NCBI GenBank assembly: GCA_903925685.1
Contig: CAIYGI010000100.1
Location: forward strand, 1 to 32,812
Length of the DNA: 32,812 nt
Direction: 5' to 3'
Source: an uncultured bacterium
GTDB lineage: Bacteria; Verrucomicrobiota; Kiritimatiellia; CAIKKV01; CAIYGI01
A program made the translations under genes and the position numbers. Under the pieces are notes generated by a model. It ran no database searches. It saw nothing but the letters and a program-made list of their open reading frames with translations, and was not told the origin of the DNA. Each line of letters opens with the position of its first letter. The stretch's first letter is position 1. Of this stretch, positions 3,771 to 19,107 are shown one piece after another.

Positions 3771-4647
3771 TTGCGGGGGGGCCGTACACCGCTTCTTCCA
3801 GCGCGGCGCGCATGGGAGCCAGGGGCGGCGTGACGCCGGTCCAGATGCGGAACGATTCGGCGCCCTGGTGCAGAAGCATGCCGAGGCCGTTGACGGCGCG
3901 CGCGCCGGCCGCGCCGGCGGTGCGCGTGAAGGCGGTTTCGGGACGCATGTAGACCAGGTCCATGGCGCACTGGCCGGGACGGAAGGCGTTGGAGGGCAGG
4001 GGACTGGGATCGTCGGAATGCATGCCGACGGGCGTGGCCTGAACGATCAGGTCAGCCGTGCGGCTGGCTTGCGGCCAGGCGGCGGGGTCGGAACCGGCGG
4101 TTGCGACAACCACCGCGGGGGCCAGGGCGTGGATTTCGTCGCTGAGCCGCTGCGTGCGCGCAGGATCTATATCCGCCAGCATCAGACGGGCGGCGCCACC
4201 GGCGGCGGACGTTATGGCCAGCGCGCGGCCTGCGCCGCCGCAACCGAGCACGAAGAGCGCGCGGCCGGCAAGATTGAAATCGAAGGCTTCGGCGATTGCG
4301 CGCAGGAAACCGCAGCCGTCAGTGTTATGGCCCTTGAGGCCGTCCGGCATGATCTCAACCGTATTGACCGCGCCCAACTGCCGCGCCAGGGGATCGATAT
4401 CGGTAAGACCGCGAAAGGCCACTTCCTTGAGCGGCACGGTCAGATTGATGCCGCCGAAACCCATGGCGGCCATGGCCGGCAGAACCTGCATCAGCCGCTC
4501 CGGGGCGACGTCGAAGGCCAGGTAGACGGCGTCGCGGCCCAGCGCCTGGAAGGCCGCGTTGTGCATGTTCGGCGAGAGGGTGTGCCGGATCGGATGACCG
4601 AGTACCGCATACGGCCGCGTGGCGCCGCTGAGGGTTGCGACGTTCAC
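3745..4647 (-). CDS. aroE: Shikimate dehydrogenase
   Basis: YAVLGHPIRHTLSPNMHNAAF, GGINLTVPLKE, GHNTDGCGF, GCGGAGRA. GTG start overlaps the leuA stop. Confidence 0.93.
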   Translation of the reverse strand: MNVATLSGATRPYAVLGHPIRHTLSPNMHNAAFQALGRDAVYLAFDVAPERLMQVLPAMAAMGFGGINLTVPLKEVAFRGLTDIDPLARQLGAVNTVEIMPDGLKGHNTDGCGFLRAIAEAFDFNLAGRALFVLGCGGAGRALAITSAAGGAARLMLADIDPARTQRLSDEIHALAPAVVVATAGSDPAAWPQASRTADLIVQATPVGMHSDDPSPLPSNAFRPGQCAMDLVYMRPETAFTRTAGAAGARAVNGLGMLLHQGAESFRIWTGVTPPLAPMRAALEEAVYGPPAKSEVNSER

Positions 4648-6224
4648 GCGCGGGACTCCTTGCGCGCCGGTTTGACGGCGGCCGCTTTGACGGCCGCGTT
4701 ACGCAGCGCAATGCGGTTGACGCACGAGAGATAGGCGCGCGCGCTGGCGTCCACAATGTCGGGACTGGCCGCCTTGGCGCTCAGGATGGTCTGGTCGAAC
4801 TGCACGCGCAAGGTTACTTCGCCCAGGGCATCCTGTCCGATCGTGACCGACTGCAGCGCGAAATCCAGCAGGTGTCCTGTGATGCCTGTGATGCGGTCGA
4901 TCGTACGCAGCGCGGCGTCCACGGGGCCGTCGCCGGTCCCGGCGTCCTCGAGAGTTTCCTTGCCGCGGCGGATGCGGACGGTGGCCGTTGGTATCGTGCC
5001 CGTGCCGGCCGAGACGTGCAGGTATTCCAGCGCGTAGAGCCCGACGGCCGGCGATTCGGAGATTTCGTCGCGGGCGATGGCGAGCAGGTCGTCGTCGTAG
5101 AGGTTTTTCTTGCGGTCGGCCAGGGCGATGAATCGGGTATAGGCCCGTTCCAGTTCCGCGGGTGAGAGCGCGAGCCCCATTTTCTGGAGCTTGTTCTGGA
5201 AACCGTGGCGGCCGGAGTGTTTTCCCAGCACGAGTTCATGCTCTTCGATGCCGACATCCTCGGCGCGCATGATTTCGTAGGTGCTGCGATGCTTGAGAAT
5301 GCCGTCCTGATGGATGCCAGCCTCATGTGCGAAGGCGTTGGCGCCCACGATGGCCTTGTTGCGCTGCACCGAAAGACCGGTCAGGCGGCTGACCAGGCGG
5401 CTGACGCGGTAGAGTTCGCGCGTGCGGATGCCGGTTTTGAGTCCAAAGACGTCGGCGCGGGTGCGCAGCGCCATCACCACCTCTTCGAGGGCGCAATTGC
5501 CGGCGCGTTCGCCCAGTCCGTTGATCGTGCATTCGACGCCCCGCGCGCCGGCCTGCACGGCGGCGAGCGAATTGGCCACCGCCAGGCCAAGGTCGTTGTG
5601 GCAATGCACATGGATGCGGGCCAGCCCTATGTTGGGGACGGTCTCGAAAAGGCCCTCGATCAGACGTCCGAACTCGTTCGGGACCGCGTAACCGACCGTG
5701 TCGGGAATATTGACCGTGCAGGCGCCGGCGTCGATCACGGCTTCCACCACTTCGGCGAGAAAGGCGGGCTCCGTGCGCGAGGCGTCTTCGGCGCTGAATT
5801 CGACCTCCTGGCAGAACTTGCGGGCATAGCGAACGGAGGCCACGGCCTGCTTGATCACCCCTTGGCGCGACATGTGCAGTTTGTACTCGCGGTGGATCGG
5901 CGAAGTGGCGAGGAAGACGTGGATGCAGGGTTTGGGCCCGGCGCAAACCGCCTCGGCGCAACGCTGGATGTCCTTGTCCACGCAGCGGGCGAGACCGGCC
6001 ACCACCGGACCCTTGACCGTTTGCGCGATGCTCTTGACGGCCTCGAAATCGTCGGGCGAGGCGATCGGGAATCCAGCCTCGATGATGTCCACGTTGAGCG
6101 CGACCAGCGCCTTGGCGATGTCCAGCTTTTCACGCATGGTCAGGCTGGCGCCGGGCGCCTGTTCGCCGTCGCGGAGGGTGGTGTCGAAGATGACGATCCG
6201 CTGCGGGTCCGGGGCGGTTTTCAT
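4644..6224 (-). CDS. leuA: 2-isopropylmalate synthase
   Basis: [67 protein letters not shown]. Shine-Dalgarno GAGGAGG; ATGA overlap with ilvH. Confidence 0.95.
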
Positions 6225-6706
6225 GGCCGGCCTCCTCTGGCAATGGCGATGATGCCTGAACGCGAGATATCGAGCATGCGGAACGGCGCCAGCAGATCGA
6301 TGAAATCCACAATCTGTTTCGAATCGCCGGTGAGTTGCACGATCATCGCGTCGGTTTGCGACGCGAGCACGCGTCCGCCAAAGCGTTCGGTGAGGGCCGC
6401 AATTGCCGCGTGCTGCGCATGCGTCGCGGCGAGTTTTACAAGCAGGCACTCCTGATTGACGCATGGCGCGCTGGTGAGATCGGTAACATCGATCACGTCC
6501 ACCAGTTTACCAAGTTGCCGCGTCACCTGTTCCAGCACCCGGTTGTCGCCCGGCACCTGCATGGTCATGCGTGAGACGGTCGGGTCGTTTGTGGGACCGA
6601 CGTTGAGCGTTTCGATATTATAGCCGCGGCCCGAGATCAGCCCGACGACGCGCGCGAGCACGCCCGGCTGGTTTTCCACAAGCGCCGTAATTATATGTTT
6701 TTTCAT
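6221..6706 (-). CDS. ilvH: Acetolactate synthase small subunit
   Basis: MKKHIITALVENQPGVLARVVGLISGRGYNIETLNVGPT.. ACT domain; Shine-Dalgarno GGAGAAA. Confidence 0.93.
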   Translation of the reverse strand: MKKHIITALVENQPGVLARVVGLISGRGYNIETLNVGPTNDPTVSRMTMQVPGDNRVLEQVTRQLGKLVDVIDVTDLTSAPCVNQECLLVKLAATHAQHAAIAALTERFGGRVLASQTDAMIVQLTGDSKQIVDFIDLLAPFRMLDISRSGIIAIARGGRP

Positions 6707-6716
6707 ATCATTTCTC

Positions 6717-6765
6717 CGAACGCAGAACATCGAACTCCGAACACTGAACACTGAACACCGAACAC
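6717..6765. repeat. Heptameric tandem repeat (NGAACNC), 7 units, between ilvB and ilvH
   Basis: CGAACGC AGAACAT CGAACTC CGAACAC TGAACAC TGAACAC CGAACAC. Confidence 0.9.
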
Positions 6766-6769
6766 TTGT

Positions 6770-8497
6770 TCAGGCCAGACCTTGCAGTAATTCGTTAAGC
6801 GCCTTGCCTGGGGGCACGATCGGGAAGACGTTTTCCTCGGCCCGCACGAGGCACTCGACGACCACCGGACGACCGGCGGCCAGCGCCTTGACGAGCGCGG
6901 GGGCCACCTCGTCCTGCCGTGTGACGCGCATGCCCAGCGCGCCGTGGGCCTCGGCCAGTTTCACGAAGTCCGGCCGGTAGGGGCCGGCGGCCCGGATGGT
7001 TGCCGGAATGCGCTCGTTAAGGTGGCGTTCGTCGCGGCCCAGGCGGACGCCGGAGTATTCGCGCTTGTAGAAGAGTTCCTGCCATTGGCGCACCATGCCG
7101 AGGTAGCCGTTGTTGAGAATTACGACCACGATGGGCAGGTCATGTTCCACGGCCACCACAAGTTCCTGGAAGTTCATCTGGATGCTGCCGTCGCCGGAGA
7201 TGAGCACCACCGGCTGATCGCGGCGGGCGGCTTTGACGCCGATCGCGGCGGGCAGGCCGAAGCCCATTGTTCCGAGGCCGCCTGAGGTGATGAAGCTGCG
7301 CGGCTTGGAATAGGGATAAAAGTGCGCGGCCCACATCTGGTGCTGTCCGACGTCGGTCACGATCAAGGCGTCGCCGCGGGTTACGGCGGCGATTTGTTCG
7401 ATCACATACTGCGGCAGCAACTCCTTTGAGGAGCGGTCGTAGGTGAGCGGATGGCGCGCTTTCCATTCGGAGACCTGGGCCAGCCATTCCGGGCGCGCGA
7501 CCGGTTCCACGGCTTCGAGCAATTTGCGCAGCGCGATTTTCACATGGCCGACGACCGGAAAATCCACCGGCACGCTCTTGCCGATGGCCGAGGGATCGAT
7601 GTCGATGTGTCCCTTCAAGGCGTGCGGGGCGAAAGTGGAAACCTTGCCTGTCACGCGGTCATCGAAGCGCGCGCCCACCGACACGACGAGATCGCAGGCG
7701 CTGGCCGCGCGGTTGGCGGCCACGGTTCCGTGCATGCCGATCATGCCGAGCGCCAGCGGCGCGCTGCCCGGGAAGGCGCCGAGGCCCATGAGTGTGCTGA
7801 CCACCGGCACGCCGGCCTTGACGGCCACGGCCGCAAACTCGGCGGCGGCATCGCCGGAGATAACCCCGCCACCCACGAGAAAGACGGGACGGCGGGCGGC
7901 GGCGACGGCCCGCGCCAGACGTTCGATGTCCTGGTCATCGGGATCGTTGTCGGGCCGGTAGCCGCGGCGGTTCATCCCTGCCGGGAACGGCGTGTCGCAG
8001 GCGGTTTGCTGGATATCTTTTGGAACATCCACGAGCACGGGGCCGGGCTTGCCGGTGGTGGCGATTTCGAAGGCCTCGACCATGATGCGCGGCAGATCCT
8101 CGACCCTTTTCACGAGGTAGTTATGCTTGGTCACGGCGCGTGTGATGCCGACCGTATCGGCTTCCTGAAAGGCATCGTTGCCGATCAGCGGCGAAGCTAC
8201 CTGACCGGCGATGCAGACCACAGGGCTGCCGTCCATGTTGGCGGTTGCGAGCCCGGTCACTGTATTTGTGGCGCCGGGTCCGGAAGTTACCAGACAGACG
8301 CCCGCCTGACCGGTGGCGCGGGCGTAGCCGTCGGCCATGTGCGCGGCGCCTTGTTCGTGGCGCGCGAGGAAGAATTCAATTGGCGCACATGGCAGTTTGT
8401 CGAAGATGTCCAGAACCATTCCACCAGGCAGTCCAAACAGGGTTTTCACCCCGGCCCGCAGCAACCCCTCGATGACGATATCCGCTCCGGTTCTCAT
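6770..8497 (-). CDS. ilvB: Acetolactate synthase large subunit (biosynthetic)
   Basis: GADIVIEGLLRAGVKTLFGLPGGMVLDIFDKL, RHEQGAAHMADGYARATGQAGVCLVTSGPGATN; ThDP motif GDGSIQMNFQELVVAVEHDLPIVVVILNN. Confidence 0.95.
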   Translation of the reverse strand: MRTGADIVIEGLLRAGVKTLFGLPGGMVLDIFDKLPCAPIEFFLARHEQGAAHMADGYARATGQAGVCLVTSGPGATNTVTGLATANMDGSPVVCIAGQVASPLIGNDAFQEADTVGITRAVTKHNYLVKRVEDLPRIMVEAFEIATTGKPGPVLVDVPKDIQQTACDTPFPAGMNRRGYRPDNDPDDQDIERLARAVAAARRPVFLVGGGVISGDAAAEFAAVAVKAGVPVVSTLMGLGAFPGSAPLALGMIGMHGTVAANRAASACDLVVSVGARFDDRVTGKVSTFAPHALKGHIDIDPSAIGKSVPVDFPVVGHVKIALRKLLEAVEPVARPEWLAQVSEWKARHPLTYDRSSKELLPQYVIEQIAAVTRGDALIVTDVGQHQMWAAHFYPYSKPRSFITSGGLGTMGFGLPAAIGVKAARRDQPVVLISGDGSIQMNFQELVVAVEHDLPIVVVILNNGYLGMVRQWQELFYKREYSGVRLGRDERHLNERIPATIRAAGPYRPDFVKLAEAHGALGMRVTRQDEVAPALVKALAAGRPVVVECLVRAEENVFPIVPPGKALNELLQGLA

Positions 8498-8550
8498 GTC
8501 GTTTGCCTTTTCTTATTTTACATGCAAACACGCATTATACGTGACTATAA

Positions 8551-8582
8551 CGAAAAACCCACTGCGAACTCGCAGTGGGTTT
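8551..8582 (-). terminator. Intrinsic terminator/attenuator hairpin upstream of ilvB
   Basis: Minus strand AAACCCACTGCG-AGTT-CGCAGTGGGTTTTTCG: 12-bp stem followed by U-tract. Confidence 0.85.
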
Positions 8583-8606
8583 GGCGTCAGCCAGATGGCG
8601 GGTGAA

Positions 8607-8717
8607 TCACCCGCCGCCCACCGCGGGGCGCAAAATAACCAGCAGTCCCTCCAGCACCAGCTTGTAGGCCGGGCTGTGATCTGCCGTGCGGATTGCGGTG
8701 GATGTTATGTGGCGCAT
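8607..8717 (-). CDS. Candidate branched-chain amino-acid leader peptide (36 aa) of the ilvB attenuator
   Basis: MRHITSTAIRTADHSPAYKLVLEGLLVILRPAVGGG*: 8 of 11 residues in KLVLEGLLVIL are Leu/Val/Ile. A terminator and a 9-bp competing pairing follow. Confidence 0.7.
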   Translation of the reverse strand: MRHITSTAIRTADHSPAYKLVLEGLLVILRPAVGGG

Positions 8718-8722
8718 GAAAA

Positions 8723-10120
8723 TTAGTATCTTTCATCCGGCTGGGAGTTGTCAACCGCATTTTTTGGGGAGATTTGCGCCACGAAATCGATCAGGCACAG
8801 ACCGGTGTGGTAGCCCGGGTCGGCGTCGGGGGTGGCGGGAATCGCCGTGGATGGATTGCCGCTGGCTTCGCGGGTTTGCAGGAAGAGGCCGGGAAGCGGC
8901 GAGCGAAACGGGCCGAAAAGGGCGCGGGCGCAATCGGCCGCGGCCGCGGCGATTTCCGCGCAGCGGGGGTGCGCGGGGGCCAGGCGAAGCAAGAGCGCGG
9001 CAGCGCGCATCGCCTCCGGCAGGGGCCACCAGGGCATGTCGCCGTTTAAGGGGGTGCGGGCAACCAGGTCGAAGGTTTTGCAGATACCGCCCAGCCGCCG
9101 CTGGAATCCGTTGGCGAACGCCGCCAGGAAGATTTCCGGTAAGCTCTCCCGGCAGGCTGCGGCGAGTTTGCGCAGTTCCTGTGTTGGTGATTTCCGCGCG
9201 CTCGCATGGAGCAGAAAGCGGGCCGCGAGCCCCGTGAACTCGATCGCGTGGCCAGGATCCAGTACAACCTTGCCCTGTTCCGTCCACGGCCTGCCAGCGT
9301 CGTCTGTCCACTCGACGAAATCGAAACGCCGCAGGGTGGTTGTGTCGCGATGAATCACGTGACGGTCGAGCAGATGCTGAAGAAAGAGCCTGCCGCCCTC
9401 GACCCACTCGTCCGCGCCGGGATAGAGATCGCACATCAACGCAAACCCGCCCAGCGCGATCATCCATGGCCCCTGCGCTTGGCGGCCGGGGACGGGCAGG
9501 GCTGGATTCTTGGGATCGAACGAAATCTGGTCCGAGGTAAAACTTCCGTCCCTGATCGCCGCGGCGGCGTTACGGAAAGTGGAGACGCCCAGCTTGCTCA
9601 ACTCCGCGCGGCCCAGCCGGACCCCGGCGGCGGCCAGTCCCTTGCCCGTAAAGAGGTCGGCAAATCCCGGCGGGATTGAAGACGCCGGAAAGTACTCGCG
9701 CCTGCCGTCCGCTCCGCGGCGAAAGGTCCGGCCATCGGGGGTGAACAGAAATACGAACCGGCCGTTGTTCACCCGTCCGAATGCGGCCATCCGCGCCGCC
9801 ACGGTTTCCAGCATCCGGTCGCAGCGCGCCGCCAGGTGCGGGGTGTCGGCCAGGAAAGCCGCGTGCCCCGCCAGCGCTTCCAGCCCGCGCCCCTGGATCC
9901 ATCCGAAGACCGCGCTACGGCCACGGAAGTCGGTCTCCGGGTCGGCTGGCTCCGGAAAATCCCGCCCGCTGTTCGTGCTCAACTTGGTATCCACGAACGG
10001 ATAGCCGGCGTTCTTTTCGAAACGCGATACAACCAGTTCGATGCCGTCTTGTAAGGCGGCGCGGCTATCGGCGATCAAGGCCTTTAAGGCGCCAGGAATA
10101 ACGTCGTCCATGTATGTCAT
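8723..10120 (-). CDS. AGE (N-acylglucosamine 2-epimerase)-like alpha/alpha-barrel protein
   Basis: FRGRSAVFGWIQGRGLEALAGHAAFL and VVLDPGHAIEFTGLAARFLLHA resemble AGE-family motifs; start trimmed to MTYMDDVIP. Confidence 0.55.
   Translation of the reverse strand: MTYMDDVIPGALKALIADSRAALQDGIELVVSRFEKNAGYPFVDTKLSTNSGRDFPEPADPETDFRGRSAVFGWIQGRGLEALAGHAAFLADTPHLAARCDRMLETVAARMAAFGRVNNGRFVFLFTPDGRTFRRGADGRREYFPASSIPPGFADLFTGKGLAAAGVRLGRAELSKLGVSTFRNAAAAIRDGSFTSDQISFDPKNPALPVPGRQAQGPWMIALGGFALMCDLYPGADEWVEGGRLFLQHLLDRHVIHRDTTTLRRFDFVEWTDDAGRPWTEQGKVVLDPGHAIEFTGLAARFLLHASARKSPTQELRKLAAACRESLPEIFLAAFANGFQRRLGGICKTFDLVARTPLNGDMPWWPLPEAMRAAALLLRLAPAHPRCAEIAAAAADCARALFGPFRSPLPGLFLQTREASGNPSTAIPATPDADPGYHTGLCLIDFVAQISPKNAVDNSQPDERY
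8725..8754 (-). promoter_or_regulatory. Putative sigma70-type promoter for the ilvB leader
   Basis: Minus strand TTGACA (8749-8754) - 18 bp - GATACT (8725-8730). Confidence 0.55.
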
Positions 10121-10296
10121 CCCACAGCCATTATTTTGCTTTGCACTTTGCTGTGATTGTGTAAGCGGCGGATCATAGCCTGAGCATACGGACGGCGCAA
10201 TCAAGAGTTGTTTGGGTGTTTTTCGGCGGTCTTGCGCCGGAGGCGCGGGGATGACAGAATGCGCGGACGTGCGCCTGAAATGCGCGCGCCTATGCC

Positions 10297-18824: not shown

Positions 18825-18880
18825 CAACGGACGCCGGAAGCCGCATTTTACGCGGCAGTTCTTTGGCAGATTATTAAATT

Positions 18881-19037
18881 GAGCCGGGCGAAGAACGGAA
18901 GTCCGTTAAAATCGGACGCGGTCGCGCCGCTGTAACCGGATACGAAACCCCGAACGAACCACTCCATCCGCAGGGATGGGGGAAGGCGGGGCGGTAGGTT
19001 CGATGCCGGAAGCCAGAAGACGTTTTGCCCGGGTACT
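18881..19037 (+). ncRNA. Cobalamin (B12) riboswitch
   Basis: GGAAGTCCGTTAAAATCGGACGCGGTCGCGCCGCTGTAACCGG...GGGGGAAGGCGGGGCGGTAGG...CGGAAGCCAGAAGACG (B12-box-like). P1 arms GAGCCGGGC / GCCCGGGTACTC. Confidence 0.93.
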
Positions 19038-19107
19038 CATGGCCGCCGGCTTGTGCCGGTGGAGCCCTCTTTCGCGGATGGAGAGCTTGAGGTGGATTGT
19101 GTCGCAC

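Follow-up and report, generated by a model that had tools for sequence, protein, structure and literature searches.

The ilvB-ilvN-leuA operon of an uncultured bacterium of the class Kiritimatiellia (Verrucomicrobiota) is, in all likelihood, controlled by a ribosome-mediated transcription attenuator that directly precedes ilvB in the 32,812-nucleotide stretch of DNA analysed here (the window). Such a mechanism had been proposed in a sequence-only reading of the same DNA, and the proposal is now supported by comparison with relatives: the arrangement is conserved together with its anatomy, the 1:2, 2:3 and 3:4 strand pairs are complementary in a genome-specific manner exceeding that of controls, and synonymous codon choice in the leaders of the relatives displays selection at the codon level.

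Organization of the ilvB leader region

All elements described below lie on the minus strand. The gene order downstream of the leader is ilvB, ilvN (ilvH), leuA and aroE, and the products of ilvB-ilvN-leuA serve the biosynthesis of leucine, valine and isoleucine. The putatively regulated gene, ilvB, encodes the large subunit of acetolactate synthase (6770-8497; TIGR00118, 748 bits against a cut-off of 538), ilvN the small subunit (6221-6751; TIGR00119) and leuA 2-isopropylmalate synthase (4644-6464; TIGR00973, 711 bits), the true start of the latter being internal, near residue 80 of the open reading frame. The operon composition suggested from the sequence is thereby confirmed. The upstream neighbour, on the same strand as the leader, belongs to the N-acylglucosamine 2-epimerase family (8723-10204). 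Its final codons overlap a predicted promoter (8725-8754), composed of a -35 box TTGACA (8754-8749), an 18-nt spacer and a -10 box GATACT (8730-8725), which together match 10 of the 12 consensus bases; only 0.2 such sites are expected in shuffled sequences.

The leader peptide gene (8607-8717) begins with an ATG 7 nt past the -10 box and encodes 36 residues, MRHITSTAIRTADHSPAYKLVLEGLLVILRPAVGGG. Its codons 20 to 29 (8631-8660) read Leu Val Leu Glu Gly Leu Leu Val Ile Leu, such that eight of the ten specify a branched-chain amino acid. Four strands capable of alternative pairing are distributed along the transcript. Strand 1, TCCACCGC (8695-8702), lies near the beginning of the leader gene and pairs with strand 2, CGCGGTGGG (8617-8625), to form a protector stem, which appears in the minimum-energy fold. 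Strand 2 can instead act as the 5' arm of an antiterminator, pairing over 9 bp (one of them G-U) with strand 3, CCCACTGCG (8571-8579), itself the 5' arm of the terminator. The intrinsic terminator 3:4 (8555-8582), AAACCCACTGCG-AGTT-CGCAGTGGGTTT, has a 12-bp stem, the 3' part of which contains strand 4, CGCAGTGGG (8566-8558), a loop of AGTT and a T-run; it is the sole terminator-like site within 8300-9000. Between strands 2 and 3, a further hairpin of 8 bp with a loop of 3 nt, GGCGGGTGATTCACCCGCC (8597-8615), spans the leader stop codon.

The leader gene, the strong terminator, the 9-bp pairing and the perfect stop-codon hairpin had all been pointed out in the sequence-only reading and were recovered at the same places, although the uridine run consists of only five T residues, followed by CG. 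Strand 1, the TTGACA-18-GATACT promoter and a TATAAT box located between the terminator and ilvB (8534-8539) were absent from that account.

Within the window, these features depart from chance expectation. The transcript from 8720 to 8545 folds with a z-score of -6.0, and none of 200 shuffles was equally stable. Among the 286 ATG-initiated open reading frames of 20-60 residues in the six frames, two contain at least 8 Leu, Ile or Val in 12 residues, and only the leader has a terminator behind it.

Conservation and covariation in the Kiritimatiellia

Relatives were sought by a DNA search over 97 genomes and by an IlvB search over 193 genomes of the class, from which the upstream regions were then fetched. 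One genome of the same genus carries the whole arrangement, with 86% DNA identity over 401 bp. Leader codons 25-37 are identical in the two, which fits coding and RNA constraint equally, and outside this segment 5 of the 8 codon differences alter the residue. Farther afield, about 34 genomes from some 20 families have a small Leu/Val-rich open reading frame with a terminator directly 5' of ilvB, and the spacing of promoter, leader and terminator is kept across these families. Counted separately, about 33 relatives have a leader frame rich in Leu, Ile and Val in the corresponding position, and about 35 have a terminator equivalent to 8582-8555. Examples of leader termini are VEFYLVLVLVLVRAPRWEGGY (genome G012), STVAVVLVLRVLVLRFVPVRVTMGGRFQ (G081) and KILALLVVVVGNRAVGRVLS (G005). 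The expectation that the peptide and the alternative pairing would be retained is thus borne out: Leu/Val-rich leaders with mutually exclusive stems precede ilvB across the class.

Nearly all of the leader-bearing genomes possess an IlvB of the window's type, at 56-69% identity outside the genus (53% in G018). Genomes of the class with a divergent IlvB (mostly at or below 57% identity) mostly lack the leader and terminator, as do most sampled genomes from other classes of the phylum; the arrangement is also absent from G124, yet its IlvB is 66% identical. In two other genomes of the set (G007 and G002), ilvB is preceded by a promoter and a terminator, but the leader frame is poor in Leu, Val and Ile codons; these leaders may have diverged or be differently tuned. 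From other classes of the phylum, a candidate leader frame rich in branched-chain residues, with a terminator, was observed 5' of ilvB in G230, a possible exception, and another, lacking a strong terminator, in G273. No attenuator resembling that of ilvB was found at ilvD, ilvC or leuC of the same genome (G000), a weak negative result, as the script sometimes selected a wrong gene start (e.g., that of ilvC in G000).

Covariation of the alternative stems was assessed in several ways. In 18 of 36 genomes (not independent of one another), the leader offers strand 3 a better partner than dinucleotide shuffles do (p <= 0.05). In a swap test, duplex partners were exchanged between genomes, using one genome for each of 18 families. 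Native pairs outperformed the swapped ones for both 2:3 (z = -6.0) and 1:2 (z = -5.8), whereas z was -0.04 for the negative control 1:3 (leader start versus terminator arm, where no pairing is expected) and about -0.7 +/- 0.9 for shuffled leaders. When the four 10-nt strands were anchored by hand and aligned, with a pair table of 24 genomes, the 1:2, 2:3 and 3:4 combinations exceed permuted partners both in pairs and in compensatory changes, and the 1:4 control shows no such excess. Because hand placement favours the proposed structure, it is the swap test that carries the weight. The two approaches replaced an automatic search for strand 1 (the best duplex in single genomes), which was noisy in GC-rich leaders. 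Examples of 1:2 pairs include CCATTGTGA with TCACGATGG (G137), CACCGTTG with CAACGGTG (G075) and TCTGTTGTGA with TCGCGGCGGA (G133), and of 2:3 pairs GTGGGCGCC with GGCGCCCAC (G029) and ATCGGCG with CGCCGAT (G099). The predicted covariation of the alternative stems is therefore present, native complementarity being greater than that of swapped and shuffled controls.

The hairpin at the stop codon is likewise a recurrent element. Its p value is 0.01 in the window and at or below 0.05 in 9 of 23 genomes (combined p 4e-8), and in many relatives it overlaps or directly follows the leader stop codon, in the loop of the 2:3 pairing. It may help strands 2 and 3 to meet or may affect ribosome release.

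Predicted translation of the leader and proposed mechanism

The position of the leader start codon is conserved relative to the promoter. In 31 of 36 genomes the in-frame ATG is located 6-10 nt past the best -10-like box (7 nt in the window), and boxes resembling TTGACN-17/18-TANNNT occur at the same distance from the ATG in most relatives. Transcription is therefore predicted to start at about the leader AUG, and since so few nucleotides separate the -10 box from the ATG, there is no room for a Shine-Dalgarno sequence. The leader mRNA is thus probably leaderless, given a start site deduced from the position of the -10 box. A start of this kind has precedents in the leaderless leader peptides of ilvB in Corynebacterium diphtheriae (PMC5784534) and Streptomyces lividans (PMC8079986) and of trpL in Sinorhizobium (PMC7298713).

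Codon usage points to translation of the leaders, for the group as a whole. The valine codon GTA is the rarest of its kind in the pooled ilvB genes of the leader-bearing genomes. In 22 leaders it was observed 51 times against 4.3 expected from the ilvB codon usage of the same genomes, an enrichment of approximately 12-fold for the leader frames 5' of ilvB in the class relatives (loci L122-L173) over their own ilvB. The GTA triplets of 34 leaders are distributed 79:12:5 among frames 0, 1 and 2; valine content by itself explains part of this preference for frame 0, and it is the synonymous comparison that is informative. The excess argues for selection on decoding in the relatives. According to models of tRNA charging, the codons preferred in attenuators should be those read with the greatest sensitivity to supply (PMC1183508), and GUA may be such a codon here. 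In the window's genus (two genomes) the leader contains no GTA and has mainly Leu codons in its stead, for which the window uses the common CTG, so that the GTA evidence cannot be applied to the leader of the window itself, which may have shifted toward leucine.

The anatomical parts by which an attenuator is recognized are found, namely the codon run, the intrinsic terminator, the covarying antiterminator and the protector 1:2 stem, and from them we infer where transcription begins and ends, where the ribosome stalls and which amino acids elicit the response. RNA polymerase would initiate close to the leader AUG, and the leaderless 36-codon peptide would be translated. When charged tRNAs for Leu, Val or Ile are scarce, the ribosome would stall at codons 20-29, leaving strand 2 free to pair with strand 3; the 3:4 terminator would be blocked and the operon transcribed. 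When these tRNAs are charged, the ribosome would reach the stop codon and cover strand 2 (or leave, whereupon 1:2 would form). With strand 2 unavailable, strand 3 would pair with strand 4, and transcription would end at about 8551. An untranslated leader should also terminate, because 1:2 and 3:4 form in the minimum-energy fold, i.e., when no ribosome is present.

The placement of the control codons fits this scheme in a ribosome-position model, in which RNA up to 9 nt beyond the A-site codon is assumed to be hidden: strand 2 is exposed by a stalled ribosome and covered once the peptide is completed. With the ribosome stalled at codons 20-28, an antiterminator of 9-10 bp can form ahead of the synthesis of strand 4; a stall at codon 29 leaves 6 bp of it, and a stall at codon 30 or later essentially none.

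Other explanations of the region were also considered. The hairpin could be the terminator of the epimerase-like gene, with ilvB transcribed from the TATAAT behind it and the small open reading frame incidental. The upstream gene indeed shares the strand of ilvB, with its end at 8723, and in 8 of 36 genomes, the window included, the terminator stem is followed at 13-17 nt by an exact TATAAT; such a box could let transcription of ilvB bypass the attenuator, which counts against the attenuator reading. The TATAAT, however, lacks a convincing -35 box and is missing in most families, and a terminator of the upstream gene would account neither for the spacing of promoter, leader and terminator, kept in about 20 families, nor for the covarying complementarity between leader and terminator or the in-frame enrichment of GTA. 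An upstream terminator alone was rejected on conservation and covariation, and we consider this explanation very improbable; under the attenuator reading, the TATAAT may be an internal promoter for basal, unattenuated expression of ilvB.

There is a slimmer chance still that the region is a leader-peptide attenuator answering to a signal other than simple charging of Leu, Val or Ile tRNAs, such as the overall rate of translation or a leader RNA or peptide acting in trans. The similar-looking ilvB leader of Streptomyces coelicolor is reported not to have acted as a classical attenuator, codon replacements in it being without effect (PMC1262725); trpL of Sinorhizobium acts in trans (PMC7298713). 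Against such a signal, the leaders are dominated by Leu and Val and biased to a rare Val codon, and the control codons are situated where stalling frees strand 2. Control of the terminator by a ligand-binding riboswitch or a T-box, rather than by leader translation, has next to no likelihood. T-boxes control some ilvB genes elsewhere, and the same is true of ppGpp riboswitches, as described for certain ilvB genes (PMC10272879). Rfam searches of the window and of 35 relatives gave no match to either class, and what is conserved is the open reading frame and the competing stems, not an aptamer-like core; the riboswitch and T-box reading was rejected on these two grounds.

Relation to known leader-peptide systems

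By anatomy and mechanism the switch is very probably of the textbook type, a classical ribosome-mediated attenuator. Enterobacterial attenuators of this type, at ilvB (ivbL), ilvGMEDA (ilvL) and leu (leuL), comprise a codon run, strands 1-4 with mutually exclusive stems and an intrinsic terminator, followed by genes for branched-chain amino acids. The present locus is like them in its codon run, strands, terminator and downstream genes, and differs in having no match to an Rfam leader family and no Shine-Dalgarno sequence 5' of the leader, and in an operon that joins ilvB, ilvN and leuA.

The closest known systems are the leaderless ilvB leaders of Actinobacteria, exemplified by the peptides MNIIRLVVITTRRLP of C. 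diphtheriae (PMC5784534) and MRTRILVLGKRVG of S. lividans ilvL (PMC8079986) and by the Corynebacterium ilvB-II motif (PMC10272879). Like these, the leader described here is short and rich in branched-chain residues, its transcript is predicted to start at or near the AUG, and hairpins and a terminator intervene before ilvB. Unlike them, it belongs to an unrelated phylum, its peptide and RNA sequences look unrelated, its start is deduced from sequence, it is longer (about 30-40 codons), and it shows conserved CCCACCG/CGGTGGG strands and the GTA-valine bias. The leaderless attenuator of Sinorhizobium meliloti trpL (PMC7298713) is similar in kind and differs in its amino acid, tryptophan, and in sequence. 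The ilvB-OMG and Leptospira ilvB motifs are structured RNAs 5' of ilvB that were reinterpreted as upstream open reading frames rich in branched-chain residues (PMC10272879); neither these nor ilvB-II gave an Rfam match here, and the Rfam release may not include their models.

The region is unannotated as far as Rfam is concerned, as the sequence-only reading had held: searches of the window and 35 relatives at gathering and permissive E-values returned nothing relevant at the leader, and none of the leader families (Leu, Thr, His, Trp and others) gave a covariance-model match at the gathering score. A search of open-licence papers, by which absence is not proven, found none on attenuators or leader peptides in Verrucomicrobia, Kiritimatiell- or Lentisphaerae. 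None of the papers found describes the class-wide occurrence; the lineage-specific features are the leaderless start, the GUA bias and the stop-codon hairpin. We are evenly divided on a broader scenario, in which a class-wide ilvB attenuator would be ancestral to a lineage of the window's class, its leaderless peptide sensing mainly valine via the rare GUA and its conserved stop-codon hairpin contributing to the switch as an additional element, while the window's genus would since have drifted to a leucine-weighted version.

If the attenuator reading is right, classical amino-acid attenuation extends to a little-studied lineage for which the papers searched revealed no attenuator, and a small gene missed by ORF callers gains a regulatory annotation. 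The leaders of about 34 genomes from some 20 families, with their covarying alternative stems, constitute a comparative data set, and the GUA bias allows tRNA-isoacceptor models of attenuator sensitivity to be tested beyond the usual model bacteria. Elsewhere in the window, on the plus strand, a cobalamin riboswitch (18850-19043; 70 bits) and, near the contig end, a group II intron match (62-138; 57 bits) were observed.
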